Notes under the pieces: generated by a model | What the model was told of the DNA's origin: nothing | The model's database searches: none | What the model saw: the letters and a program-made list of their open reading frames with translations, nothing else | Position numbers and translations under genes: made by a program | Origin: Spelaeicoccus albus | Lineage (GTDB): Bacteria > Actinomycetota > Actinomycetes > Actinomycetales > Brevibacteriaceae | Assembly: GCF_013409065.1 (NCBI RefSeq) | Contig: NZ_JACBZP010000001.1 | Span: forward strand, 806,001-870,000 | Length of the DNA: 64,000 nt | Reading direction: 5' to 3' | Part shown: positions 45,818 to 61,995 of the stretch, piece by piece | Layout of the letters: each line of letters opens with the position of its first letter | Numbering within the stretch: the stretch's first letter is position 1

Positions 45818-46502
45818 GCCGCTTCCTTCGGATCGACACGTCATCGGTCGCACATTGCTTCGCGATCAGGCTTTCGAGGCACTGTGCTCGGCAATCGTCG
45901 ACGGCACACTCGCACCCGGCGAACAGTTGAACGACAACGACATCGCCGACTGGCTCGGGTTCAGCCGAACTCCGGTTCGCGAAGCTCTTGCCCGACTCGA
46001 AGCGAACGGCCTTGTGACGGCGACGCCGGGCCGGTCCACAGTGGTGGCCGCGATCGACTCGGATGCCGTGAACGAAGCCGCGAACGTCGCAGCGGCGCTG
46101 CATTCACATGCGATGCGGATGGCGGTGCCGCGATTTGCCCCCGCCGATTACGCAGCAATGCGGGCCGAGAACGAACGATTTGCTGCAGCGCTTCGCAGCC
46201 GGGATCCGCGAGCGGCTTTTGAAGCAGACGACTGCTTTCACGACGTCGCCCTACGCGTGTGCGGCAACGAAACTCTCACCGGCTTGCTGACGCAAGTCTC
46301 ACCGACGTTGCGGCGGGTTGAATTCGCCCGCTTCGGGTCGCTCCTCGGGGAAGAGTCGATACACCAGCACGCTCGCATCATGACGGTCGCAGAAGCCGGG
46401 GACGCGGACGGCGCGGCCGGCGCCGTCCGGGCGAACTGGCAGACCCTGTATCTGTCGGGCGGCCAATCGACCACTGGAATCAATTCACGGGAGACGGCAT
46501 GA
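45816..46502 (+). CDS. GntR/FCD regulator of ACC deaminase
   Basis: A 228-residue FadR-type regulator. The N-terminal GntR winged helix is at about residues 12-75 ([40 protein letters not shown]). The C-terminal FCD domain carries the metal-ligand pattern [10 protein letters not shown] ... QHARIM. Its stop overlaps the acdS start by 4 bp, so regulator and enzyme are one unit. ACC or a related amino acid is the natural candidate effector. The start at ATG 45816 lies inside a 16-bp palindrome. Confidence 0.92.
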
Positions 46503-47506
46503 AACTGTCCGATTACGAACGCTATCCACTGATGTTCGGGCCGAGCCCCGTGCACCGATTGCCGCGGCTGTCCGAGCATTTGGGCGGTCCCGCAATCTGG
46601 GCCAAACGCGAAGATTGCAACAGCGGACTGGCTTTCGGTGGCAACAAGACCCGAAAACTGGAGTACCTCGTGCCGGAAGCCCGCGCGCAAGGCGCCGACA
46701 CTCTGGTCACGATCGGCGGCGTCCAATCGAATCACACGCGCCAGGTGGCTGCCGTGGCCGCGCACCTGGGACTCAAGGCGGTGCTGGTTCAAGAGGCCTG
46801 GGTCGATTGGCCGGACTCCGTCAACGACCGAGTCGGCAATATCGAACTATCGCGCATCATGGGCGCGGACGTGCGGCTGTCATCCGAAGGGTTCGGCATC
46901 GGGTTCAAATCCAGCTGGGAGGAAGCGATCGAAGACGTTCGCGCGTCCGGGGGAACCCCGTACGCCATTCCGGCCGGCGCCTCCGACCACCCACTGGGCG
47001 GCCTGGGGTTCGCGAATTGGGCGTACGAAGTCGAGCAGCAAGAGCGGGAGCTCGGCGTCTTCTTCGACACCGTCGTCGTCTGCGCCGTCACCGGCTCGAC
47101 GCTCGCCGGCATGATCGCCGGCTTTGCCGGGCAGGATCGGCCCCGCCGCGTCATCGGCATCGACGCCTCGGCCACCTTGGACCAGACCCGCGACCAAGTC
47201 GCCCGCATCACCCGATCGACCGCCAAAGCGATCGACCTCGGCCGGGATCTCACCGACGACGAGATCACCGTGCTCCCCGGATGGGCCGGCGACCACTACG
47301 GCATCCCCGTCGACTCGACCGTCGAGGCCATCGAGCTCACCGGTCGCCTCGAAGGCGTCATCCTCGATCCGGTCTACGAAGGCAAGTCCATGGCGGGGCT
47401 GATCGATCTCGCCACTTCCGGTGAAATCGCCTCGGAATCAAACGTGCTCTACGCGCATTTGGGCGGCCAGCCGGCCATCAACGCATACTCCGCCTTGTTC
47501 CACTGA
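46499..47506 (+). CDS. acdS: 1-aminocyclopropane-1-carboxylate deaminase
   Basis: A 335-residue fold-type II PLP enzyme splitting the plant ethylene precursor ACC into 2-oxobutyrate and ammonia. [29 protein letters not shown] (PLP Lys50), [20 protein letters not shown] (Ser77), [18 protein letters not shown] (Tyr293, Glu294) and [14 protein letters not shown] (Leu321) follow the Pseudomonas enzyme almost block for block. Glu294 and Leu321 correspond to the Glu295/Leu322 pair that separates true ACC deaminases from D-cysteine desulfhydrases. A downstream palindromic repeat may end the transcript. Confidence 0.94.
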
Positions 47507-50648: not shown

Positions 50649-51575
50649 GTGAGTAATACAGCAAGCACAAAACCGGTAAAGATGCGCCGACGATTCGGTC
50701 GCAAGCACGCACGTGAGTATCTGACGTTCGTGGCGTTCGTGCTACCCAATATCGCCTTGATCGCGGTATTCATCTATCGACCGCTGATCAGCAACATCTA
50801 CTACTCAATGCTGGATTGGCGTCTGGGATCGGCCACGGCGAAAATCGTCGGCCTGGCCAACTACGTCAACTGGTTCACCGACCCGGGCAGCCTGGAAGTC
50901 ATCCGGATCACCGTGATCTTCACTATCGCGACCGTCGGCGGCTCGATGGTCATCGGGCTGGCGTTGGCGCTGGCTCTCAACCAACGCATTCCTGGAACGG
51001 CCTTCGCCCGGTCGGCGGTATTCGCGCCATATGTGCTGTCCGGCGTGGGCGTCGGCATGGTGTGGCTGTTCATCTTCGACCCGACGTACGGGGCACTCAG
51101 CGGCATTTTGCGGCTGCTCGGCACCAGCGGGCCCGACTGGTACCTCGACCGCAATTGGGCGCTGGTCATGCTGATCATCGTGTACGTGTGGAAAAACCTC
51201 GGATACGCGGCGGTCATCTATCTGGCCGGGCTGCAATCGGTGCCGAACGACTTGCTCGAAGCCGCGCAGATCGACGGCGCCGGCGGATCGAAGCGGTTCT
51301 TCAAGATCGTGCTGCCGCTGCTGTCGCCGACGACGTTCTTCCTGCTCGTCACGATCGTCCTGAATTCGCTGCAGTCCTTCGACCTGATCCGGATCATGAC
51401 GAAAGGCGGCCCGCTCGACGGCACCAAGACGCTCATTTACCAGGTGTATGAGGAAGCATTCGTCAACGGTCGCGCCGGCTACTCCTCGACGGTGGCAATC
51501 ATCCTGTTCGTCGTGCTGCTTCTGCTGACCGTCGGACAAATGCGGTATCTCGAACGGAGGGTGCATTACTCGTGA
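50649..51575 (+). CDS. ABC transporter permease (UgpA type)
   Basis: A 308-residue inner-membrane permease from GTG 50649, with six helices (LTFVAFVLPNIALIAVFIY first) and the EAA loop DLLEAAQIDGAGGSKRFFKI. It belongs to the sugar/glycerol-3-phosphate CUT1 group. Its stop overlaps the next permease's GTG by 4 bp. No ATPase gene is linked, as in the galactoside operon. Confidence 0.92.
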   Translation: MSNTASTKPVKMRRRFGRKHAREYLTFVAFVLPNIALIAVFIYRPLISNIYYSMLDWRLGSATAKIVGLANYVNWFTDPGSLEVIRITVIFTIATVGGSMVIGLALALALNQRIPGTAFARSAVFAPYVLSGVGVGMVWLFIFDPTYGALSGILRLLGTSGPDWYLDRNWALVMLIIVYVWKNLGYAAVIYLAGLQSVPNDLLEAAQIDGAGGSKRFFKIVLPLLSPTTFFLLVTIVLNSLQSFDLIRIMTKGGPLDGTKTLIYQVYEEAFVNGRAGYSSTVAIILFVVLLLLTVGQMRYLERRVHYS

Positions 51576-52474
51576 GCCAAACGACTCAAAAGGCGCCCGA
51601 ACGACCGCGCAAGAAATCGTCGGAGATGCACGGACCGTTCAGCCGACAGAACCTCAAAGCGACGTTGCTCAAGGGTTATCTGCCGCTCTTGATCGCCACC
51701 CTTGTGATGGTGCTGCCGCTGCTTTGGATGATCATTTCATCGTTCAAACTGCGCGGCGAGATCATTTCCATGCCCGTGCAATGGCTGCCGCATTCGGCAT
51801 ACGGCGGCAACTACACGATCGCCGCCGACAAAGTGCCGTTCGCCCGAGACTTCCTCAATTCGATAATCGTCACGTTCTTCGGCGCCGGCATCAAGGTCGT
51901 CCTGGCCATCTTGACGGCGTACGCGCTCGTGTTCATCCGTTTCCCGTTCAAACGGGTCGTCTTCGTCTTGATCCTCGTCACCCTGATGGTGCCGCCGCAG
52001 ATCGCCATGGTGCCCAACTACGTGTTCATCGTTGGTCTCGGAGGCATGAACACCTATTGGGGCATCATCCTGCCGGGGCTGGCGTCGGCGTTCGGTACGT
52101 TCTTGCTCAGACAGCAGTTCATGACGTTCCCGCAATCCGTGACGGAGGCCGCCGAAATCGACGGAGCCAGCCATTGGAAACGGCTCTGGAGTATCGTCGT
52201 CCCGATTTCCGCGCCCGCGATCGCGACCGTCACGCTCGTCTCGATCGTTTACGAGTGGAATGACTATCTGTGGCCGCTCGTCATCATCGACGACCCCCAC
52301 ATGATGACGCTGCCGGTCGGCCTGACTCTTCTGCAAAACGTCGAAGCGGGCTCGTCCCAGTGGGGCGTCATGATGGCCGGCACGGTCCTCGTCATCGTGC
52401 CGATTCTCATCGTGTTCGCCATGCTGCAGCGCTACATCGTCTCCGGTCTCACCCAGGGAGCCGTCAAAGATTAA
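51572..52474 (+). CDS. ABC transporter permease (UgpE type)
   Basis: A 300-residue inner-membrane partner permease starting at GTG 51572. It has six helices, the EAA loop EAAEIDGASHWKRLWSIVVP and a MalG-type end QRYIVSGLTQGAVKD. Pairs with the upstream UgpA-type protein. The N-terminus is basic and soluble (KAPERPRKKS). Confidence 0.93.
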   Translation: MSQTTQKAPERPRKKSSEMHGPFSRQNLKATLLKGYLPLLIATLVMVLPLLWMIISSFKLRGEIISMPVQWLPHSAYGGNYTIAADKVPFARDFLNSIIVTFFGAGIKVVLAILTAYALVFIRFPFKRVVFVLILVTLMVPPQIAMVPNYVFIVGLGGMNTYWGIILPGLASAFGTFLLRQQFMTFPQSVTEAAEIDGASHWKRLWSIVVPISAPAIATVTLVSIVYEWNDYLWPLVIIDDPHMMTLPVGLTLLQNVEAGSSQWGVMMAGTVLVIVPILIVFAMLQRYIVSGLTQGAVKD

Positions 52475-52522
52475 CAACGTGTGCTCGATCCAGTTCCTTC
52501 TCCAGTGACGAAAGGCATTCTC

Positions 52523-53890
52523 ATGAGTGACATCAATACGCCGGACGGCGCGTCGGGCTTCGGACGCCGTCGACTGCTTGGCTTCGGTGCGGCAGGGCTT
52601 TCCGCAGCCGCAGTAGCCGCCTGCTCCGGACCGTCCACCAGTTCCAGCGACTCGAAGACTTCCGGCAGCGAGGATTACTCGGGCGTCAAACCGGCAAAGA
52701 AGATCGAATTCTGGTCGAACCACCCCGGGGCGAACCAAGCCTACGAACAAAAAGTCGTGGACAAGTGGAACTCGCAGCAAAGCGACACCAAGGTCAAGCT
52801 CGTCACCGCCGGCCAGGATTATGCATCGGTGGCGCAGAAATTCCAGACCGCACAAGCAGGTGGCGGACTGCCCGGCGTCGTCATCTTCTCCGACGTCTGG
52901 TGGTTCCGGTATTACCTGAACAAGTCGATCATCCCGATGGACGCGCTAGTGAAGTCGGAAAAGATCGACAAGGACGACTACAACTCCACCCTCTGGGGCG
53001 ACTACACCTACGACAACAAGCAGTGGGCTGTGCCGTACGCACGCTCCACTCCGATCTTCTACTACAACAAGTCGCACTGGAAAAAGGCAGGACTGCCCGA
53101 TCGCGCCCCGAAGACCTGGATGGAATTCGAGGAGTGGACGAAGAAGCTCAAAAAGGCCGACCTTGGCACGAAGACCCAATTCGAGTACGGAGCGCTCGCC
53201 GACTACATCGCCTGGACGTTCCAGAACAACGTCTGGGGATGGGGCGGCAACTACAGCAAGAAATTCGACATGACCATCGACGACGACGGCGCCGTCAAAG
53301 CAACCGACTGGGCGCGCAAGGGCGTGTTCGAAGGCAAGTGGGCCAAGGTCGCGTCGAGTTCGTCGACCGACGACATGTCGGCCGGCGCCTGTTCGGCGAC
53401 CGTCAGCTCGACCGGCAGCCTCGTCGGCGTCCTTGACGCCGCCAAGGGCAAGTTCGAGGTCGGCGTCGGGTTCTTGCCGGGCGGCCCGGAAACCACCGAT
53501 AAGGTCTGCCCCACCGGCGGCGCCGGTCTCGGCATCCCGAAGGACATTACACCGGAAGAGCAGGTCGCGGCGGCGCGGTTCATCAAGTTCCTGACCTCCC
53601 CCGAGAACACCGTGGGGCTGTCCAAGGCAACGGGGTACATGCCGCTTCGCAAGTCGGCGGATACAAAGAAGCTGATCGCCGCCAACCCACTGATCTCGAC
53701 GGCCATCAAGCAGCTGCCGCACACCCGTTCGCAGGATTGGGCTCGCGTGTTCATCCCGGGCGGCGACAAGATTCTCACCGACGGGTTCACCAAGGTGTTC
53801 ACCGAGAACGCGGATCCGAAGTCGGCTCTGGCGGACGTCAAGAAAAAGCTGGAACAGGCTTACAAAACTGACGTGAAGCCTAACCTGTAA
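52523..53890 (+). CDS. ABC transporter substrate-binding protein (UgpB type), Tat-type lipoprotein
   Basis: About 455 residues from ATG 52523, with GAAAGG before it. The signal is GFGRRRLLGFGAAGLSAAAV then AACSG: twin-Arg, hydrophobic stretch and lipobox, so likely Tat-exported and lipid-anchored. The mature fold is SBP_bac_1 (KKIEFWSNHPGANQAYEQKV, PYARSTPIFYYNKSHWKKAG). Wording is closest to UgpB, which binds glycerol-3-phosphate or its diesters, so a polyol-phosphate is possible. Last gene of the operon, closed by a strong terminator. Confidence 0.9.
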   Translation: MSDINTPDGASGFGRRRLLGFGAAGLSAAAVAACSGPSTSSSDSKTSGSEDYSGVKPAKKIEFWSNHPGANQAYEQKVVDKWNSQQSDTKVKLVTAGQDYASVAQKFQTAQAGGGLPGVVIFSDVWWFRYYLNKSIIPMDALVKSEKIDKDDYNSTLWGDYTYDNKQWAVPYARSTPIFYYNKSHWKKAGLPDRAPKTWMEFEEWTKKLKKADLGTKTQFEYGALADYIAWTFQNNVWGWGGNYSKKFDMTIDDDGAVKATDWARKGVFEGKWAKVASSSSTDDMSAGACSATVSSTGSLVGVLDAAKGKFEVGVGFLPGGPETTDKVCPTGGAGLGIPKDITPEEQVAAARFIKFLTSPENTVGLSKATGYMPLRKSADTKKLIAANPLISTAIKQLPHTRSQDWARVFIPGGDKILTDGFTKVFTENADPKSALADVKKKLEQAYKTDVKPNL

Positions 53891-54006: not shown

Positions 54007-54035
54007 GATTTCTGACAACGACGCAGGAGGAACGG

Positions 54036-55538
54036 ATGTCGCAGCCCGATCCGATCACCGCTCACTTCGGGCACCGCCCCGGAAAGATCTACGCCGTCCA
54101 CCTCAACTATCCGTCTCGTGCAGCCCAGCGCGGGCGCACTCCAGCGGCAGCGTCGTACTTCTTCAAGCCGACCTCGTCGCTGGCCGGGCCCGGTGAGGTG
54201 GCGCGCCCGCAAGGCACGGAACTGCTCGGGTTCGAAGGCGAAGTCGCCCTCGTCATCGGCACCTCCGCCCGCAATGTGGCACCGGACGCGGGCTGGTCGC
54301 ACGTCGGTTGGGTGACGGCGTCCAACGACCTGGGCCTGTACGACATCCGCTATGCGGACAAGGGCTCAAACGTGCGCAGCAAGGGCGGCGACGGATACAC
54401 GCCGGTCGGCCCCGAGCTGATCGACGCGCACCGGATCGACCCGGCCGGGCTACGCATCCGCACGTGGCGCGGCGACGACCTCATTCAGGACGACACCACC
54501 GCCGACCTCTTGTTCGACTTCGGACACCTTGTCGCAGATCTGTCGCGCTTTGCCACTCTCGAGCCCGGCGACGTCATCCTCACGGGGACGCCGGCCGGCG
54601 CGTCGGTGGCCGAACCCGGACAGACCGTCACTGTCGAAGTCAATTCGATAGCGGACGAGTCGATCACGAGCGGCAAGCTCACGACGACCGTCGTCCATGG
54701 TCCGGCGCTTGGCGATTGGGGGTCGGCTCCGAAAGTGGACGACCAGGTCCGCGCCGACGCTTGGGGCACGCCGTCCGCCGCGAGTTCCGACTCGCCGCAG
54801 GCTCCTCGCGGTGCCGACGGCGGCAGCGGCCCGCTGACTCCGGAACTTCGCGAGCGGATCAAGGGCGTAGCCGTGGCCACGCTCTCGGCCCAAATGCGTA
54901 AGCGCGGTTTCAATCAGGTGAGCATTGACGGCGTCCGGCCCCTCGTCGCGGGCACCACCATCATCGGCACGGCTCGCACCTTGCGTTTTGTGCCGTTCCG
55001 CAAGGACCTGTTTGCCGAGTCCGGCGGCGGCTTCAACGCCCAGAAGCAGGCAATTGATTCGGTCGGTGACGGCGACGTTCTCGTGATGGATGCCCGCGGA
55101 CGCTCGGATGCCGGCACTCTCGGCGACATTCTGGCCATGCGCGCCAAGGTGAACGGCGCCGCCGGCGTGATCACGGACGGCGCGATCCGCGATGCCGCCG
55201 CCGTGGAAGAGGTCGGCATGCCGGTGTATTCCTCCGGCTTCCACCCGGCGGTGCTCGGCCGCGTGCACGTGCCATGGGAGACCGACGTGACGGTGTCGTG
55301 CGGCGGTGCAAGTGTGCAGCCGGGCGACGTCATCATCGGCAACGACGACGGCATTCTCGTCATCCCGCCGGCCCTGATCGATGAAGTTGTCGCGAGCGCC
55401 GAGCAACAAGAAGACGAAGAGACGTTCATTCTCGAGCAGGTGAAGGCCGGACGCAGTGTCGAGGGTCTCTACCCGCTGAATAAACAGTCGCGCGCCGAGT
55501 ACGAGGCGTGGGCTGCCCGCAGAGCGGAGGACCGATGA
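54036..55538 (+). CDS. Fusion of HpaG-type fumarylacetoacetate hydrolase domain and RraA-like domain
   Basis: A 500-residue cytoplasmic protein. Residues ~15-235 are an FAH-fold HpaG-type isomerase/decarboxylase (FEGEVALVIG metal Glu, ASNDLGLYDIRYADKGSN, DLIQDDTTADLLFD, LEPGDVILTGTPAG). After a Ser/Pro/Gly linker, residues ~275-490 are an RraA-like domain with GRSDAGTLGDILAMRAK, GVITDGAIRD and GNDDGILVIP. Canonical HpaG has two FAH domains, one for isomerisation of the ring-cleavage product and one for decarboxylation. Here the second is replaced by an RraA fold, some members of which are metal-dependent decarboxylases or aldolases. Confidence 0.88.
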   Translation: MSQPDPITAHFGHRPGKIYAVHLNYPSRAAQRGRTPAAASYFFKPTSSLAGPGEVARPQGTELLGFEGEVALVIGTSARNVAPDAGWSHVGWVTASNDLGLYDIRYADKGSNVRSKGGDGYTPVGPELIDAHRIDPAGLRIRTWRGDDLIQDDTTADLLFDFGHLVADLSRFATLEPGDVILTGTPAGASVAEPGQTVTVEVNSIADESITSGKLTTTVVHGPALGDWGSAPKVDDQVRADAWGTPSAASSDSPQAPRGADGGSGPLTPELRERIKGVAVATLSAQMRKRGFNQVSIDGVRPLVAGTTIIGTARTLRFVPFRKDLFAESGGGFNAQKQAIDSVGDGDVLVMDARGRSDAGTLGDILAMRAKVNGAAGVITDGAIRDAAAVEEVGMPVYSSGFHPAVLGRVHVPWETDVTVSCGGASVQPGDVIIGNDDGILVIPPALIDEVVASAEQQEDEETFILEQVKAGRSVEGLYPLNKQSRAEYEAWAARRAEDR

Positions 55539-56191
55539 CCGTCGCCCCGGCGCCGTCGAAAGCCGAACGCGCCTATCAGGTCATCCGCTCGCGCATCGCC
55601 GACGGCACGTACACGCCCGGATATCGACTCACCTTGAGCCGATTGGCAAGCGAGCTCGGCGTCTCGGCCGTGCCGATCCGCGAGGCGATCCGCCGGCTCG
55701 AGGCCGAGTCGCTCGTCGAATTCGAGCGCAATGTCGGTGCAACGGTGGCCGGCATCAACGAGCAAGAGTACGAGTGGACCATGCAGACGCTCGGCCTGGT
55801 GGAAGGCGCCGCAACCGCCATGGCCATGCCCTTTGTCGATGCCGCCGCCATCGACGAGGCCCGCGCGATCAATGAGCAGATGCGCGGCATCGTCGAGGCT
55901 TTCGACCCGCAGCGCTTCACTCGCCTGAACACCGAACTGCACCGGCTGCTCTATCGGGACTGCCCGAACGAACACCTACTCGACCTGGTCGAACGCGGCT
56001 GGTCGCGCCTGAGCCTGATGCGCTCATCGATCTTTTCGTTCGTGCCCGAACGCGCGCGTGAATCGGTGGACGAACACGAGCACATTTTGCAGCTGATCTC
56101 CTCAGGAGCCGCGCCGGACGAGGTCGAACACGCCGTCCGCGCCCATCGCGGAGCCACATTGCAGGCGTTCCTCGAACGGGGCGCGAAGTGA
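55535..56191 (+). CDS. GntR/FCD regulator of the homoprotocatechuate operon
   Basis: A 218-residue FadR-type regulator from ATG 55535, overlapping the upstream stop by 4 bp. The winged helix is at ~residues 10-70 (AYQVIRSRIADGTYTPGYRL, ELGVSAVPIREAIRRLEAES) and the FCD domain has RLNTELHRLLY and DEHEHILQLI metal ligands. Encoded inside the operon it probably regulates, consistent with the palindrome over the operon's promoter. Confidence 0.9.
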   Translation: MTVAPAPSKAERAYQVIRSRIADGTYTPGYRLTLSRLASELGVSAVPIREAIRRLEAESLVEFERNVGATVAGINEQEYEWTMQTLGLVEGAATAMAMPFVDAAAIDEARAINEQMRGIVEAFDPQRFTRLNTELHRLLYRDCPNEHLLDLVERGWSRLSLMRSSIFSFVPERARESVDEHEHILQLISSGAAPDEVEHAVRAHRGATLQAFLERGAK

Positions 56192-56231: not shown

Positions 56232-57155
56232 ATGAAATTCCGGTCCGAGCCGCAAAGCCTCACGGGCGCCATCGCCGCCGTCTTCACGCCGTTCACGGCG
56301 GACGGCGTCGTCGACTTGGAGAACCTGCGCCAATTGATCCGGTGGCAGCTGGCGAACGGATCCGACGGCATCTCGATCGGCGGTTCGACCGGCGAACCGT
56401 CGGCGCTGACCCTTGCCGAGCGGGCTCAAATGATCCGCGTGGCTGCCGAGGAGACGCAGGACGCCGTCCCGTTCCTACCGGGCACGGGCTCGGCGAAACT
56501 CGATGAGACGCTCGAGCTCACCGGGATCGCGCGGGATGCCGGGGCCGACGCCGCGCTCATCATCACGCCGTACTACGCCAAGCCGACGCAAGAAGCGCTT
56601 TACCAGTGGTACAAGACGGTGGCTGCCGAATATCCCGATCTGCCGATCGTGGCGTACAACGTGCCGAGCCGCACCTCCGTCGAGATCTCCCCGGACACCG
56701 TCGGCCGGCTCTTCCGCGAGGTCGACAATTTCGTCGGCGTGAAAGAGACGACGAAGGATTTCGAGCACTTCTCGCGCGTGCTGTACGAATGCGGCCCCGA
56801 GCTGATGGTGTGGTCGGGCATCGAGTTGCTGTGCCTGCCCATCTTGGCGCTGGGCGGTGCCGGATTCGTTTCGGCGCTGTCGAATATCGCCCCGGCGGCG
56901 GTGTCGCAGATGTACCGGGCCTACTCCGAGGGCGACTTCGAGACGGCCCGCCGAATCCATTACGGCGTACACCCGCTCGTCGATCTGCTCTTCGCCGAAA
57001 CGAATCCGGCGCCCTCGAAGTGGTTGATGAAGGAACGCGGGCTCTTGACCAGCGACTTCGTCCGTCCGCCGCTGATTCCGCTGACCGCGCCCGGACAAGC
57101 GACGGTGCGCAAGCTGGCCGAGGCCGGCGCCGACTACCTCACCCCCGTGAAATAA
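56232..57155 (+). CDS. DapA-family aldolase/lyase of the homoprotocatechuate pathway
   Basis: A 307-residue Schiff-base (beta/alpha)8 enzyme. The oxyanion/pyruvate site is GGSTGEPSALT, the catalytic Tyr is in ITPYYAKPTQEAL and the Schiff-base Lys in FVGVKETTKDFEHF. By position it likely does the job of HpaI, cleaving 2,4-dihydroxyhept-2-enedioate to pyruvate and succinic semialdehyde. HpaI itself is a metal-dependent class II aldolase of another family. True dihydrodipicolinate synthase is unlikely in this setting. AGGGAGA precedes the ATG. Confidence 0.85.
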   Translation: MKFRSEPQSLTGAIAAVFTPFTADGVVDLENLRQLIRWQLANGSDGISIGGSTGEPSALTLAERAQMIRVAAEETQDAVPFLPGTGSAKLDETLELTGIARDAGADAALIITPYYAKPTQEALYQWYKTVAAEYPDLPIVAYNVPSRTSVEISPDTVGRLFREVDNFVGVKETTKDFEHFSRVLYECGPELMVWSGIELLCLPILALGGAGFVSALSNIAPAAVSQMYRAYSEGDFETARRIHYGVHPLVDLLFAETNPAPSKWLMKERGLLTSDFVRPPLIPLTAPGQATVRKLAEAGADYLTPVK

Positions 57156-57165
57156 GGAGAATCCG

Positions 57166-58662
57166 ATGACTCATTTCGTTCCGGAAAACCTTCCCACGCA
57201 CTTGCAGCATTACATCGACGGCCGATTCGTCGATTCGGTCGACGGCGACACGTTCGACGTGCTCGACCCCGTCACCAATCAGCCGTACGCGTCCGCGGCG
57301 TCCGGCAAATCCGCCGACATCGACCTGGCAGTGGCAGCCGCTCGGACGGCTTTCACCGACGGCCCCTGGCCGACCATGAAGAACCGCGAGCGCGCCCGCG
57401 TGCTGTATGCGATTGCGGACGCCGTCGAAGCCGAGGAGACCGAACTGGCCGAGCGCGAAACGTTCGATACCGGTCTGCCGATCACTCAGGCGCGCGGGCA
57501 GGCACGTCGGGCCGCCGAGAACTTCCGATTCTTCGCCGACGTCATAGTGGCGTTGCGGGATGACGCTTACAAGGTCCCCGGCACTCAGATCAACTACGTC
57601 AACCGCAAGCCGGTGGGCGTGGCCGGGCTGATCACGCCGTGGAACACGCCGTTCATGTTGGAATCGTGGAAGCTGGCGCCGGCGTTGGCGTCCGGGTGCA
57701 CTGTCGTTCTGAAACCCGCCGAGTTCACGCCGTTGTCGGCCTCGCTGTGGGCACGGATTTTCGAAAACGCCGGATTGCCGCACGGCGTCTTCAACCTGGT
57801 CAACGGGTTTGGCGAAGAGGCCGGCGACGCACTGGTCAAACATCCCAAGGTGCCGCTGATTTCGTTTACCGGCGAAAGCGCAACCGGCCGGCTGATCTTC
57901 CGTAACTGTGCCGAGAACCTAAAGGGCATGTCGATGGAGCTTGGCGGCAAGTCGCCGGCCGTCGTGTTCGCCGACGCCGATCTGGACGCCGCCATCGACT
58001 CGACGCTGTTCGGCGTCTACTCGCTCAACGGAGAACGCTGCACAGCCGGTTCGCGGATCCTCGTCGAGCGCAGCATTTACGACGAATTCTGCGAGCGATA
58101 CGCCGCCCGGGCCGACAAGATCGTCGTCGGGGACCCGCACGACCCCGCTACGGAGGTTGGCGCGCTGGTGCATCCGGAGCACTACGAAAAGGTCATGAGC
58201 TACGTCGAGCTCGGCAAGTCCGAGGGCCGACTCATTGCCGGCGGCGGCCGGCCGGACGATCAGCCGGACGGCAATTACGTACGGCCGACGGCGTTTGCGG
58301 ACGTGAAGCCGGACGCCCGAATCTTCCAGGAGGAAATCTTCGGACCGGTCGTTGCCATCACGCCGTTCGACGACGAGCGCGAGGCACTGCAATTGGCAAA
58401 TGACGTCAAGTACGGTCTTGCCGCGTACGTCTGGACCAACGACCTCGAGCGAGGACACCGCTTCTCGCAAAATATCGAGGCCGGCATGGTGTGGATGAAT
58501 TCGCACAACGTGCGCGACCTGCGCACGCCGTTCGGCGGAGTGAAGGCGTCCGGGCTCGGACAAGAGGGCGGCCAGCGGTCAATTGATTTTTATTCGGAAG
58601 AACAAGCGGTGCACGTATCGCTCGGCGAGGTACACACGCCGCGATTCGGCGCACGGAATTAA
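57166..58662 (+). CDS. hpaE: 5-carboxymethyl-2-hydroxymuconate semialdehyde dehydrogenase
   Basis: A 498-residue aldehyde dehydrogenase oxidising the ring-cleavage semialdehyde with NAD. Motifs: TPWNTPFMLESWKLAPALAS, FTGESATGRL, ELGGKSPAVVFADADLDAAI (Glu), and NGERCTAGSRILVE (catalytic Cys). The closing EIFGPVVAITPFDDEREALQ and the context between the DapA-like and dioxygenase genes fit HpaE. Ten bp after the preceding gene, with AAGGAGAA before the ATG. Confidence 0.93.
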   Translation: MTHFVPENLPTHLQHYIDGRFVDSVDGDTFDVLDPVTNQPYASAASGKSADIDLAVAAARTAFTDGPWPTMKNRERARVLYAIADAVEAEETELAERETFDTGLPITQARGQARRAAENFRFFADVIVALRDDAYKVPGTQINYVNRKPVGVAGLITPWNTPFMLESWKLAPALASGCTVVLKPAEFTPLSASLWARIFENAGLPHGVFNLVNGFGEEAGDALVKHPKVPLISFTGESATGRLIFRNCAENLKGMSMELGGKSPAVVFADADLDAAIDSTLFGVYSLNGERCTAGSRILVERSIYDEFCERYAARADKIVVGDPHDPATEVGALVHPEHYEKVMSYVELGKSEGRLIAGGGRPDDQPDGNYVRPTAFADVKPDARIFQEEIFGPVVAITPFDDEREALQLANDVKYGLAAYVWTNDLERGHRFSQNIEAGMVWMNSHNVRDLRTPFGGVKASGLGQEGGQRSIDFYSEEQAVHVSLGEVHTPRFGARN

Positions 58663-58676
58663 GGAGAAGGACAACG

Positions 58677-59798
58677 ATGTCTGACAATACTGTGCCTGCG
58701 GCTTTGCCCCCTGCCCCCGACGTCATCCGCGCCGCCTCGGCCGAGTTGATCGTGACCGACCTGGCGGCAGCGCGCAGCTTTTACGTGGACGTGCTCCGCC
58801 TGGTGGTCACCGAAGAGGACGAGAACGCGATCTACTTGCGCGCGTTCGAGGATTATCTGCACCATTCGCTCGTCCTGCGCAAGGGCCCCGTGGCAGCGTG
58901 TGCGGCCCTGAGCTACCGGGTCCGGTCCGAAGCGGAGCTGGACGTCGCCGAAACATACTACAAGGCGCTCGGCGTCGACGTCCGGCGTCTTCCGGCCGGC
59001 ACGAAGCGGGGCATCGGGGAGATCGTGCAAGTGCAGGACCCGCTCGGATTCCCGATCGAGTTCTTTTACGGTGCGGAGCATGTCGAGAGGTTCACTCAGC
59101 GGTATGACGTGCACGGTGCCGGGGCGATCGCGCGGCTCGATCACTTCAACGTGGTCACGCCCGATATTCCGGCGGCGCAAAAATACTACGAAGGTCTCGG
59201 TTTCAAGGTTTCCGAGGACATCGAAGACGACGAGCAGACCGTGTATGCGGCGTGGATGTATCGCAAGTCGACGGTGCACGACGTCGCGTTGACCGGCGGC
59301 GACGGCCCGCGCATGCACCACATCGCGTTCTCGACGAATGAGCGGCACCAGATCCTGCACATTTGCGATCAGCTCGGTGCGCTGCGCCGGTCGGACGCCA
59401 TCGAGCGCGGCCCGGGACGGCATGGCGTGTCGAACGCGTTCTACCTGTATCTGCGCGACCCGGACGGCCACCGGATCGAGATCTACACGCAGGACTATTA
59501 CACCGGCGATCCGGACAATCCGGTCATTCGGTGGGATGTGCACGACAATCAGCGCCGTGATTGGTGGGGCACGCCCGTCGTTCCGAGCTGGTATTCCGAA
59601 GCATCGACGGTACTGGACCTGGACGGGCACCCCGCCGAGCTGGTCGAACGGAAGGACAGCTCGGAAGCCGCCGTGACAATTGGCGCCGACGGATTCTCCT
59701 ACACGCGGGCGGACGAGACGCGCTCGGACGGCTCCGCTGGTCCGGGCTCCGGCCGTTCGGGCGAGGTTCAGGGCGTGAAACTCGGCCACCAGGTCTAA
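58677..59798 (+). CDS. hpaD: Homoprotocatechuate (3,4-dihydroxyphenylacetate) 2,3-dioxygenase
   Basis: A 373-residue type I extradiol dioxygenase built from four VOC modules; it opens the ring next to the hydroxyls. Metal ligands are His156 (ARLDHFNVV), His215 (MHHIAFST) and Glu268 (HRIEIYTQDY). His201 (STVHDVALTG) and Asn158 are the second-sphere residues. Each is one position beyond its counterpart in the well-studied Brevibacterium fuscum enzyme (His155, His214, Glu267, His200), and long blocks (ERGPGRHGVSNAFYLY, VHDNQRRDWWG) match it. AAGGAGAAGG precedes the ATG. Cofactor iron or manganese cannot be told. Confidence 0.96.
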   Translation: MSDNTVPAALPPAPDVIRAASAELIVTDLAAARSFYVDVLRLVVTEEDENAIYLRAFEDYLHHSLVLRKGPVAACAALSYRVRSEAELDVAETYYKALGVDVRRLPAGTKRGIGEIVQVQDPLGFPIEFFYGAEHVERFTQRYDVHGAGAIARLDHFNVVTPDIPAAQKYYEGLGFKVSEDIEDDEQTVYAAWMYRKSTVHDVALTGGDGPRMHHIAFSTNERHQILHICDQLGALRRSDAIERGPGRHGVSNAFYLYLRDPDGHRIEIYTQDYYTGDPDNPVIRWDVHDNQRRDWWGTPVVPSWYSEASTVLDLDGHPAELVERKDSSEAAVTIGADGFSYTRADETRSDGSAGPGSGRSGEVQGVKLGHQV

Positions 59799-60012: not shown

Positions 60013-61284
60013 TTACCGGGACGCGACCTGACCGATAGAGTTCGCCGGCGCCTCATTCTCGGGAAGGTGCTTGCGATACGACAGCATGATGACGGCGGCA
60101 CTCGCACACGCCAGCACGGCCAGGCCCAAGAACAGCCCAACCGTCGTCAGCGGCGGGGTGATGGCGGCGAGCAGAGTCGGGGTGAGGAATCCCGCGTACG
60201 CGAGGGCGTAGAACACACCGGTCAATCCAGCGAGTTCCCGCTCCGGAGCAATCCGCTGCACCTCAAGCAGTCCCGACACCAGCCCGATGCCCATGGCGAT
60301 TCCGAAGACGACAGCGGCGACGAGTCCGATCACCGGCGACGAATAAACGACCGCCAGCGTCAGCACGAGGATTCCGCCCGTAATGCCGGCAAGGCACACC
60401 ACCAGGCCGCGCGCGTTCGACGTCGAATCGATCCGTTTGGCCAGCGGCTGCACGAGTGAAGCCACGCCGAGCGTCACAACGCTGAGTATCGCCGCATACC
60501 CGAGACCCCATCCGGCAGTCCGATCCGCCAATAACACCGGAAGATAGCCATAAGCCAGCGCGGCTGCCGCAAATAACCATGGTGCCGCGACAACGACGAC
60601 TCGCGTGAACCGTCGATGTGAGGCCGACGGAACACGGAACCGATCCCGGAAGCCGAGCTTCACGCCATCCCACCGCACCGTTTCGGGAACACGTCGAATG
60701 AGAAAAAGCAGCGGCGCCGTCATAACCACGTGAACAGCGAACGGCAATTCCTCGCCCCAAGCCGTGAATTGCGCGATGCCGCCGGCGACGAGCGCGCCGG
60801 TGGCCGACCCCGCCGTGAAGGCCAATGACGAGCGACGCGCGCCGCTGCCGACGTCCGCATCATCGTCGAACGGGGCCCGCGAGAGTTCCTTGATCCAGCT
60901 CGTCCCCACCGACATGGCAGCACCCACCGCTACACCGGACAACAGCCGTCCGACATAGATGCCCGCAACATTTGCCTCGCCCAGCAGCAGCGACAGGCTG
61001 GCCGCCAGGGAGCTGACCACTGCGACGATCATCAGTGGGCGGCGCCCGAACCTGTCCGACAGCGCGCCGGCCGCCAATAACGCCGGAGCCAACCCGAATA
61101 CGTAGACGCCGAGAAACGCGTTGACGTCGACTGTCGAATAGTGCTCGACGTTCTCGTACATCAGCAACAGCGGGCTGAACTGATTGCCGCACCAGGAGCA
61201 GGCGAACAGCGCGCAAAAGACTACCGGCCACGCGCCGGCGGCCGGCCGGTTCGCGGAACCCCGGCTTGCAACACGACGGCTCAC
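60013..61284 (-). CDS. MFS transporter
   Basis: A 423-residue permease with about 12 helices from GTG 61284, overlapping the GntR gene stop by 4 bp. Motif A is ALSDRFGRRPLMIVAV and GRLLSGVAVGAAMSVGTSWI follows. Its place beside the homoprotocatechuate operon and its coupling to a GntR regulator hint at uptake or efflux of an aromatic acid, but the sequence does not prove it. Confidence 0.88.
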   Translation of the reverse strand: MSRRVASRGSANRPAAGAWPVVFCALFACSWCGNQFSPLLLMYENVEHYSTVDVNAFLGVYVFGLAPALLAAGALSDRFGRRPLMIVAVVSSLAASLSLLLGEANVAGIYVGRLLSGVAVGAAMSVGTSWIKELSRAPFDDDADVGSGARRSSLAFTAGSATGALVAGGIAQFTAWGEELPFAVHVVMTAPLLFLIRRVPETVRWDGVKLGFRDRFRVPSASHRRFTRVVVVAAPWLFAAAALAYGYLPVLLADRTAGWGLGYAAILSVVTLGVASLVQPLAKRIDSTSNARGLVVCLAGITGGILVLTLAVVYSSPVIGLVAAVVFGIAMGIGLVSGLLEVQRIAPERELAGLTGVFYALAYAGFLTPTLLAAITPPLTTVGLFLGLAVLACASAAVIMLSYRKHLPENEAPANSIGQVASR

Positions 61285-61931
61285 AGTACCCCCTGGTTGC
61301 GTGCAATGTGCCGGTGCAGAATCTCCCGGTAGCCGTCGGCGGATCGCGACACGACGGCGTCCCGCAATTCCTCGTGCTCACGAAGCGACATCGCCAACTG
61401 ACCGGGATCAACGGCGAAGAGTTGATGCCGCACGCGCTGTTGACGGTCGCGAAGCAGCGCAAAGAAGTGTCCGGCGATATCGTTCCGCGAGGCCTCGACG
61501 ATTGTCGTGTGAAAAGCATCGTCCGCCGCCACGAATCCGTCGACGTCTCCGGACGCAGCGCATCGGCGTTGATCGGCCAGCAATTCGTCCAGCCTGGCCG
61601 TGAGTTCGGTGGAAGGTGCCGCGGTCGCCGTGGTCGCTGCGCTGCCCTCGATCGCTTCGCGCATTTCGAGGACGTCGCTCGATTCGCGCGGATTCATGGG
61701 CACGACGATTGCTCCGCGGCGAGACGAAAGGGTGATGAGTCGCTCGGCCGCAAGCCTGAGGAATGCCTCGTGTACCGGCGTCCGACTGATCCCGAGGTCC
61801 GCCCCGATGCTCGCTTCGCTGAGAAGACTGCCGCCGGCGAGCTCGCCGCGGATAATCATGTCTTTGGTGTGGGTATACGCACGTTCTGCGGCGGAAAGCT
61901 GGTCTGTCACGCTCTCCGACGTTACTTGCAT
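61281..61931 (-). CDS. GntR/FCD regulator
   Basis: About 216 residues from ATG 61931, chosen because the winged helix starts soon after and the codon lies at the edge of a long inverted repeat; the frame extends to 61982. GntR domain: YTHTKDMIIRGELAGGSLLS, SIGADLGISRTPVHEAFLRL. FCD domain: DDAFHTTIVEAS and SLREHEELRDAV. Co-transcribed with the MFS gene. Confidence 0.88.
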   Translation of the reverse strand: MQVTSESVTDQLSAAERAYTHTKDMIIRGELAGGSLLSEASIGADLGISRTPVHEAFLRLAAERLITLSSRRGAIVVPMNPRESSDVLEMREAIEGSAATTATAAPSTELTARLDELLADQRRCAASGDVDGFVAADDAFHTTIVEASRNDIAGHFFALLRDRQQRVRHQLFAVDPGQLAMSLREHEELRDAVVSRSADGYREILHRHIARNQGVL

Positions 61932-61949
61932 GCATGCTTGCATGCAAGT
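61924..61949 (-). promoter_or_regulatory. GntR operator overlapping its own start codon
   Basis: ACTTGCATGCA (61924-61934) and TGCATGCAAGT (61939-61949) form perfect 11-bp arms with a 4-nt centre. The start codon (61931-61929) is inside the left arm. The same layout is seen at the acdS regulator. Confidence 0.7.
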
Positions 61950-61995
61950 TGGTTGTCGGTGCGCGGCCGGGTGGATGATCAACGAGAACTTTGCC

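Follow-up and report, generated by a model that had tools for sequence, protein, structure and literature searches.

A protein of 500 amino acids, in which an FAH domain is joined to an RraA-fold domain, was identified in the window (the whole stretch of 64,000 nucleotides that was analysed), and this fusion very probably stands in for HpaG in actinomycetes. The fusion is real and would make for a variant form of the homoprotocatechuate pathway. Judged from sequence and genomic context, it is highly likely that the protein carries out middle steps of this pathway, in which the tri-acid made by HpaE (CHM/OPET) would be converted to the di-acid (HHDD/OHED), and it would thus replace HpaG and probably HpaF too. 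How this work is divided between the two halves is put forward more tentatively: the proposal as a whole, in which the RraA half is the decarboxylase and the FAH half the tautomerase/isomerase, is given a probability of roughly 0.45. It builds on what was found by sequence analysis and genomic comparison, namely the fusion, a conserved site in each half, an hpa cluster around the gene, the lack of HpaG-N and an aldolase encoded separately. The features of the fusion and its cluster are as follows.

54036-55538, + strand: FAH-RraA fusion, very probable HpaG stand-in, 500 aa (ORF, Pfam, NCBIfam NF009399)
54084-54692, + strand: FAH domain, residues 17-219 (Pfam FAA_hydrolase range)
54771-54824, + strand: linker, residues 246-263, predicted to be disordered (pLDDT below 50)
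54876-55361, + strand: RraA-fold domain, residues 281-442 (Pfam), with D364, R385 and D386
55535-56191, + strand: GntR/FCD-type regulator (Pfam), overlapping the fusion by ATGA at 55535
56232-57155, + strand: DapA-like protein of the DHDPS fold, probably standing in for HpaI and possibly a hydratase-aldolase (TIGR02313, TIGR00674; exchanged for HpaH and HpaI)
57166-58662, + strand: HpaE (TIGR02299, 673 bits, cut-off 638)
58677-59798, + strand: HpaD, 3,4-dihydroxyphenylacetate 2,3-dioxygenase (TIGR02295, 415 bits, cut-off 321)

The ORF of the fusion occupies exactly 54036-55538 on the + strand, starts with ATG and is preceded by AGGAGG at 54025-54030. Pfam matches to FAA_hydrolase (residues 17-219, 147.3 bits, E 6.8e-43) and RraA-like (residues 281-442, 115.2 bits, E 4e-33) were both far above the gathering score, and NF009399 matched residues 9-498 with 741 bits (cut-off 444), which makes the protein a member of that family and agrees with the original prediction of an FAH domain fused to an RraA fold. 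NF009399 (PRK12764, 'fumarylacetoacetate hydrolase family protein') is an equivalog model of 501 positions with a two-domain architecture identical to that of the fusion. The architecture is therefore already catalogued, in a family that is unnamed and has no stated reaction; its place in a pathway is what the present analysis adds. A chance pairing of domains can be dismissed, as this model covers residues 9-498 and the fusion exceeds its cut-off in 31 of the 394 genomes sampled from the class. An AlphaFold2 model, for which 29 fusions served as input, showed two domains that were for the most part confidently predicted (mean pLDDT 87.8), with a pLDDT below 50 at the linker; with a pTM of only 0.53, it does not predict how the domains are placed relative to each other. 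In a Foldseek search with the fusion, the best 50 of 901 matches were all FAH proteins. One copy of the fusion, that of Cryobacterium sp. MLB-32 (L018:4387-5832), is interrupted in the assembly, as its extracted ORF stops at 370 aa while the RraA match runs on beyond it.

As with HpaG, the gene is encoded together with HpaE and HpaD, both of which scored above their equivalog cut-offs in the window, and the HpaG-type position in an hpa cluster that had been predicted is thereby supported. References for HpaF, HpaG, HpaH and HpaI found no match in the window except the fusion itself. In the host genome (4.03 Mb) no match to HpaH was detected and the best HpaI match reached 78 bits, while CHMI gave no match in a search whose controls gave no match either. 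Three other single-domain FAH proteins are encoded in the host genome, none of them passing the cut-off for HpaG-N or HpaG-C.

Across the class, the fusion was found above the NF009399 cut-off in 31 of 394 genomes and HpaE above its own cut-off in the very same 31, the chance of identical sets being about 1e-46 if the genomes are treated as independent, which they are not. In four other genomes of the class, HpaE-like matches of 604-620 bits fell short of the cut-off, and the fusion did not pass its own cut-off either. HpaG-N passed its cut-off in none of the 31 fusion genomes (and in two of two control records); all 31 contain weaker FAH matches, of up to 127 bits. CHMI (HpaF) was matched in only one of them, with 39.9 bits on another contig; the positive control of the CHMI model was a protein scan, in which four of four known CHMI scored 105-166 bits.

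A set of 52 fusion loci, comprising 17 and 30 from two genome sets that possibly overlap, four from plasmids and the window, was scored by TBLASTN against references from the window, Rhodococcus and E. coli (two of these loci share one genome, G208). Within 12 kb of the fusion, HpaD was found in 52 of 52 loci and HpaE in 51, a recurrence in other actinobacterial hpa clusters that had been suggested as a check on the original prediction and was borne out, and E. coli-type HpaF and HpaG (at least 180 bits) were found in none. A GntR match of at least 120 bits was present in 49 loci. The loci include Arthrobacter, Pseudarthrobacter, Cryobacterium, Pseudoclavibacter and Haloechinothrix, and the fusion also occurs on large replicons of Embleya, Paenarthrobacter and Rhodococcus; on annotated plasmids its neighbours are hpaE and genes that carry hydratase and HpaI aldolase annotations. 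Within the host phylum at large, growth on 4-hydroxyphenylacetate, homoprotocatechuate and tyrosine is reported for Arthrobacter Rue61a (PMC3534580). In the accessible parts of the open-licence full-text literature, no report was found of an RraA domain with FAH in the homoprotocatechuate pathway.

HpaG/HpcE (PRK15203; TIGR02305, TIGR02303) resembles the fusion in lying beside HpaE and HpaD, in its FAH fold and in having two joined domains, but the second domain of the fusion is of the unrelated RraA fold instead of being a second FAH lobe. With one FAH domain only, the fusion falls outside HpaG as defined by two FAH lobes, or by each lobe above its cut-off: it reached 106.9 bits with PRK15203 (cut-off 811), 125.5 bits with the C-terminal lobe TIGR02303 (cut-off 276.4) and 71.5 bits with the N-terminal lobe TIGR02305 (cut-off 228.65). 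The FAH half is thus nearer to the C-terminal lobe, and it was likewise nearer to the C lobe of 1gtt (107.8 bits) than to the N lobe (57.7 bits). The E-E-D triad of HpaG-C is retained, and the metal-site residues E67, E69, D98 and K116 were invariant in 29 of 29 rows. At the lid, S27-R28 are found where HpaG-C has an H..E pair; the H column of the lid holds R in 12 of 12 fusion rows and H in five of five HpaG-C and three of three Deinococcus rows, and HpaG-N likewise lacks the lid H (0 of 5). A tree of FAH domains was considered as a route to the parent lobe and does not settle function: the fusion halves fell into one group with FAH-only and BG43 proteins, at a support of 100, separate from HpaG-N and with no specific link to HpaG-C.

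The 'GDIL...R-D' metal-site residues that had been pointed out in the second domain are present as D364, R385 and D386, invariant in 29 of 29 rows of the fusion alignment. They form the D-X20-R-D motif, which we take to be the metal and enolate site of RraA-fold class II pyruvate aldolases/oxaloacetate decarboxylases, so that the fusion carries the motif of this enzyme group. It was found in 49 of 49 fusion proteins examined, three of the 52 loci having been left out of the count for proteins shorter than 450 aa (L018 with 370 aa, L019 with 444 aa, and L011, which lies at a contig end). E. coli RraA has R-Q at the position where the fusion has R-D, and the domain is thus of the catalytic type. 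In an RraA-fold enzyme of P. putida, Arg-123 and Asp-124 are placed in the metal/enolate site (PMC5065237). Catalytic enzymes of this fold are described as breaking C-C bonds, with class II pyruvate aldolases as the best-known members, and the HMG/CHA aldolase is reported to decarboxylate oxaloacetate as well (PMC5065237). The latter group (LigK/PcmE, TIGR02798, NF006731) shares the RraA fold and the R-D metal-site residues with the fusion, which scored below the cut-offs for both LigK/PcmE (83.3 against 304.5 bits) and NF006731 (93.2 against 179 bits); unlike it, the RraA domain here is fused to FAH and belongs to a pathway with a separate aldolase. Above its cut-off of 208, at 236 bits, the RraA half matched NF006093 (PRK08245 subfamily, 'hypothetical protein'), a stand-alone family without a stated function that is here one half of a fusion.

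The original prediction had named action on RNase E-like partners as an alternative that would undo it. The common fold and weak scores with the RraA regulator models PRK09372 (55.3 bits, cut-off 136) and TIGR02998 (27.3 bits, cut-off 241.25) are what such a role could be argued from; it was rejected as exceedingly improbable on score, both cut-offs being missed, on motif, given R-D in place of the R-Q of E. coli, and on gene context, with HpaD nearby in every locus. Stand-alone RraA proteins were also considered as a guide to function and were dropped, the sole close relative (60% identity to the fusion half; L021:9992-10702, from a Microbacterium MAG) lying in a different cluster. It directly follows a VOC dioxygenase and precedes a dienelactone hydrolase-family gene. 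Ten further stand-alone RraA loci (33-39% identity; L097-L099, L111-L117) had no match to HpaE or HpaD.

With the fusion in the place of HpaG, three activities still lack a gene: CHM isomerase, OPET decarboxylase and HHDD isomerase. HpaH and HpaI were found beside the fusion in 33 of the 52 loci and a DapA-like gene in 13 (window included), the two sets never occurring together; the six loci with neither full set nearby all have an HpaI of 296-328 bits elsewhere in the genome. Every one of the 52 thus has a separate gene for an aldolase, HpaI or DapA-like, at the locus or elsewhere in the genome, so that OPET decarboxylation is the sole C-C cleavage still lacking an enzyme. It is for the same reason that the RraA half is probably not the aldolase itself: a role as the pathway aldolase, in place of HpaI, would suit the best-known chemistry of the fold and the solved-structure relative 3noj, and was set aside as very improbable with HpaI or a DapA-like protein at hand throughout. 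According to the proposal favoured here, the metal-dependent RraA half would take CO2 off OPET, a vinylogous beta-keto acid, by way of a metal-held dienolate, a route modelled on the handling of oxaloacetate by its relatives. The metal-dependent FAH half would interconvert keto and enol forms, converting CHM to OPET and/or HHDD to OHED. OPET decarboxylation by the RraA half is plausible, with the shared distribution of fusion and HpaE and the unbroken retention of D-X20-R-D in its favour, although we know of no RraA-fold decarboxylase of a vinylogous acid.

The position of the FAH half among the HpaG lobes counts against this division of labour. For E. coli HpcE, decarboxylation has been ascribed to the C-terminal lobe, which bears the E-E-D metal triad, and isomerisation to the N-terminal lobe, an assignment described as resting on the crystal structure alone (PMC12718150). 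The FAH half being nearer to the C-terminal lobe, the missing half is by homology the isomerase half. As a whole the original prediction was hence only partly supported, the substitution of the RraA fold for the decarboxylation step being no more than plausible: the chemistry of the fold and the one C-C cleavage left agree with it, while the likeness of the FAH half to the decarboxylase lobe of HpaG does not. A reversal of the roles is accordingly a possible reading, if a rather doubtful one, in which OPET decarboxylation falls to the FAH half, as in HpaG-C, and the RraA half replaces HpaG-N and/or HpaF, either through protonation of a metal-bound enolate or because it completes a complex that the decarboxylase needs. 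To our knowledge, no isomerase of the RraA fold has been described, which speaks against this reversal; the favoured proposal calls for none. The lack of HpaG-N in the fusion genomes fits it, as does the poor performance of the A. baumannii decarboxylase in the absence of its isomerase partner (PMC12718150). Against it also stands work on FAHD proteins from three domains of life: those tested are reported to be mainly oxaloacetate tautomerases with a decarboxylation about 2x10^4 weaker (PMC10825186), a finding that favours a tautomerase role for the FAH half as proposed. The loss of the lid H..E pair of HpaG-C argues against a decarboxylase, and HpaG-N, the lobe assigned as isomerase, is without the lid H as well; as an argument on role the pair is nevertheless ambiguous, because in FAHD1 it has been proposed to act in hydrolysis and ketonisation alike (PMC7115867) and its loss therefore also counts against a tautomerase.

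Variants in which the halves are apart or altered bear on a further reading, considered unlikely, in which the FAH half performs all of the steps needed and the RraA half has an accessory role, as a scaffold or through a useful but non-essential activity. Plasmid stretches of Deinococcus, to which that comparison was confined, include those of D. deserti and D. ficus, where a single FAH gene lies with HpaE, HpaD, HpaH and HpaI and no RraA, and that of D. wulumuqiensis, with one FAH and a CHMI. Another 18 FAH-only loci (L090-L096, L100-L110) had no RraA match, together with an HpaE-like match in 18 of 18 and a LigB-type HpaD-like match in 17; one of them lies near a glutamine synthetase-family gene. 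A 403-aa FAH-RraA relative with 31% identity, encoded on plasmid pRLCBG43 of R. erythropolis BG43 (L026:7968-9179), retains the FAH site, whereas D-X20-R-D is gone from its RraA part; it adjoins a VOC protein, a hydroxylase and a second FAH. The cases other than D. wulumuqiensis favour a self-sufficient FAH domain, those of D. deserti, D. ficus and the FAH-only loci weigh against an RraA decarboxylase, and CHM is reported to isomerise spontaneously, CHMI accelerating the reaction (PMC12718150). Such self-sufficiency is at odds with the retention of D-X20-R-D in every fusion of an hpa cluster that was examined, with the D. deserti FAH passing the HpaG-C cut-off (331 bits) where the FAH half of the fusion does not, and with the poor performance of A. 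baumannii OPETD alone (PMC12718150). The FAH and RraA halves can exist separately, and the assignment of roles is not settled thereby.

No HpaH or HpaI was found near the fusion at the 13 loci with a DapA-like gene. Among the 31 genomes of the class, 22 have HpaH of 297-376 bits near the fusion (above the cut-off in 11) and HpaI of 280-330 bits, none of the latter passing the cut-off of 368.8; these matches, like those of the six loci with HpaI elsewhere, are likely, though not certain, to be HpaI. In the nine genomes with the DapA-like gene, HpaH was without a match in six, below the cut-off in two (197 and 223 bits) and fully matched elsewhere in one (G233), while HpaI was without a match in three, at 20-144 bits in five and at 364.5 bits elsewhere in G233. 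Two further genomes of this type (L015, L018) had no HpaI match.

The best model for the DapA-like protein of the window was TIGR02313 (HpaI-NOT-DapA), with a score of 315.3 bits that is below the cut-off of 396.7 and leaves it outside the family, and it passed the dapA cut-off (TIGR00674, 278 bits against 206). TIGR02313 was also the best model for two cluster relatives (352 and 325 bits), ahead of TIGR00674 and again below the cut-off; a difference from this family is that HpaH is missing as well as HpaI at the DapA-like loci. The protein is a class I aldolase of the DHDPS fold by its Pfam DHDPS match (293 bits), and K171, Y142 and R147 were invariant in 12 of 12, these being presumably the Schiff-base lysine, the tyrosine and the carboxylate-binding arginine. 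Its predicted model matched the DHDPS 7kly at Z 41.3 and, at Z 39.3, a DHDPS structure holding pyruvate and succinic semialdehyde, which are the products expected at this pathway step. That the gene might be the only DapA of its genome was rejected, as another (G000, 2266046) passes the dapA cut-off with 254.8 bits.

The DapA-like protein is therefore a probable stand-in for HpaI. It may in addition be a hydratase-aldolase, of what we take to be the NahE/PhdJ kind, because HpaH is missing together with HpaI, which is the sole argument for this activity; an unrelated hydratase is the alternative. It is conceivable, though speculative, that in the window and 12 other loci five lower-pathway steps would be covered by two proteins, with the fusion in place of HpaF and the HpaG lobes and the DapA-like protein in place of HpaH and HpaI. 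With HpaH and HpaI exchanged for one gene, the hydratase-aldolase idea can be checked with a single protein. Two control genomes, Thermus composti and Deinobacterium chartae, passed for HpaE and had no match to HpaH or HpaI, which fits such an exchange. In Rhodococcus sp. JS3073 and R. koreensis (L121, L122), a DapA-like protein 61% identical to that of the window adjoins an FAH gene, with no HpaE, HpaD, HpaH or HpaI match nearby; the former locus also adjoins a gene with DHBP synthase and GTP cyclohydrolase II domains.

If the proposal for the fusion is correct, it would supply a function for a catalogued, unnamed family and explain a pathway with hardly any HpaF and without an HpaG-N above the cut-off. 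Some soil actinobacteria would then seem to rely, midway through the breakdown of tyrosine-derived compounds, on a single fusion protein that joins two unrelated folds and replaces the usual isomerase/decarboxylase. With the RraA half as the decarboxylase, the chemistry of its fold would extend to vinylogous beta-keto acids; were it the isomerase, the fold would gain a type of reaction that is, as far as is known, new to it.

Other genes were identified on either side of the cluster. A PLP-dependent protein encoded at 46499-47506 reached 530 bits with the ACC deaminase model TIGR01274, above its cut-off of 392. Just ahead of the fusion and on the same strand, 50649-53890 encodes an ABC transporter solute-binding protein (52481-53890) with two upstream ORFs that appear permease-like by eye. 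Beyond HpaD, an MFS transporter and a second GntR/FCD regulator are encoded on the - strand (60013-61982), and these could serve the hpa cluster.
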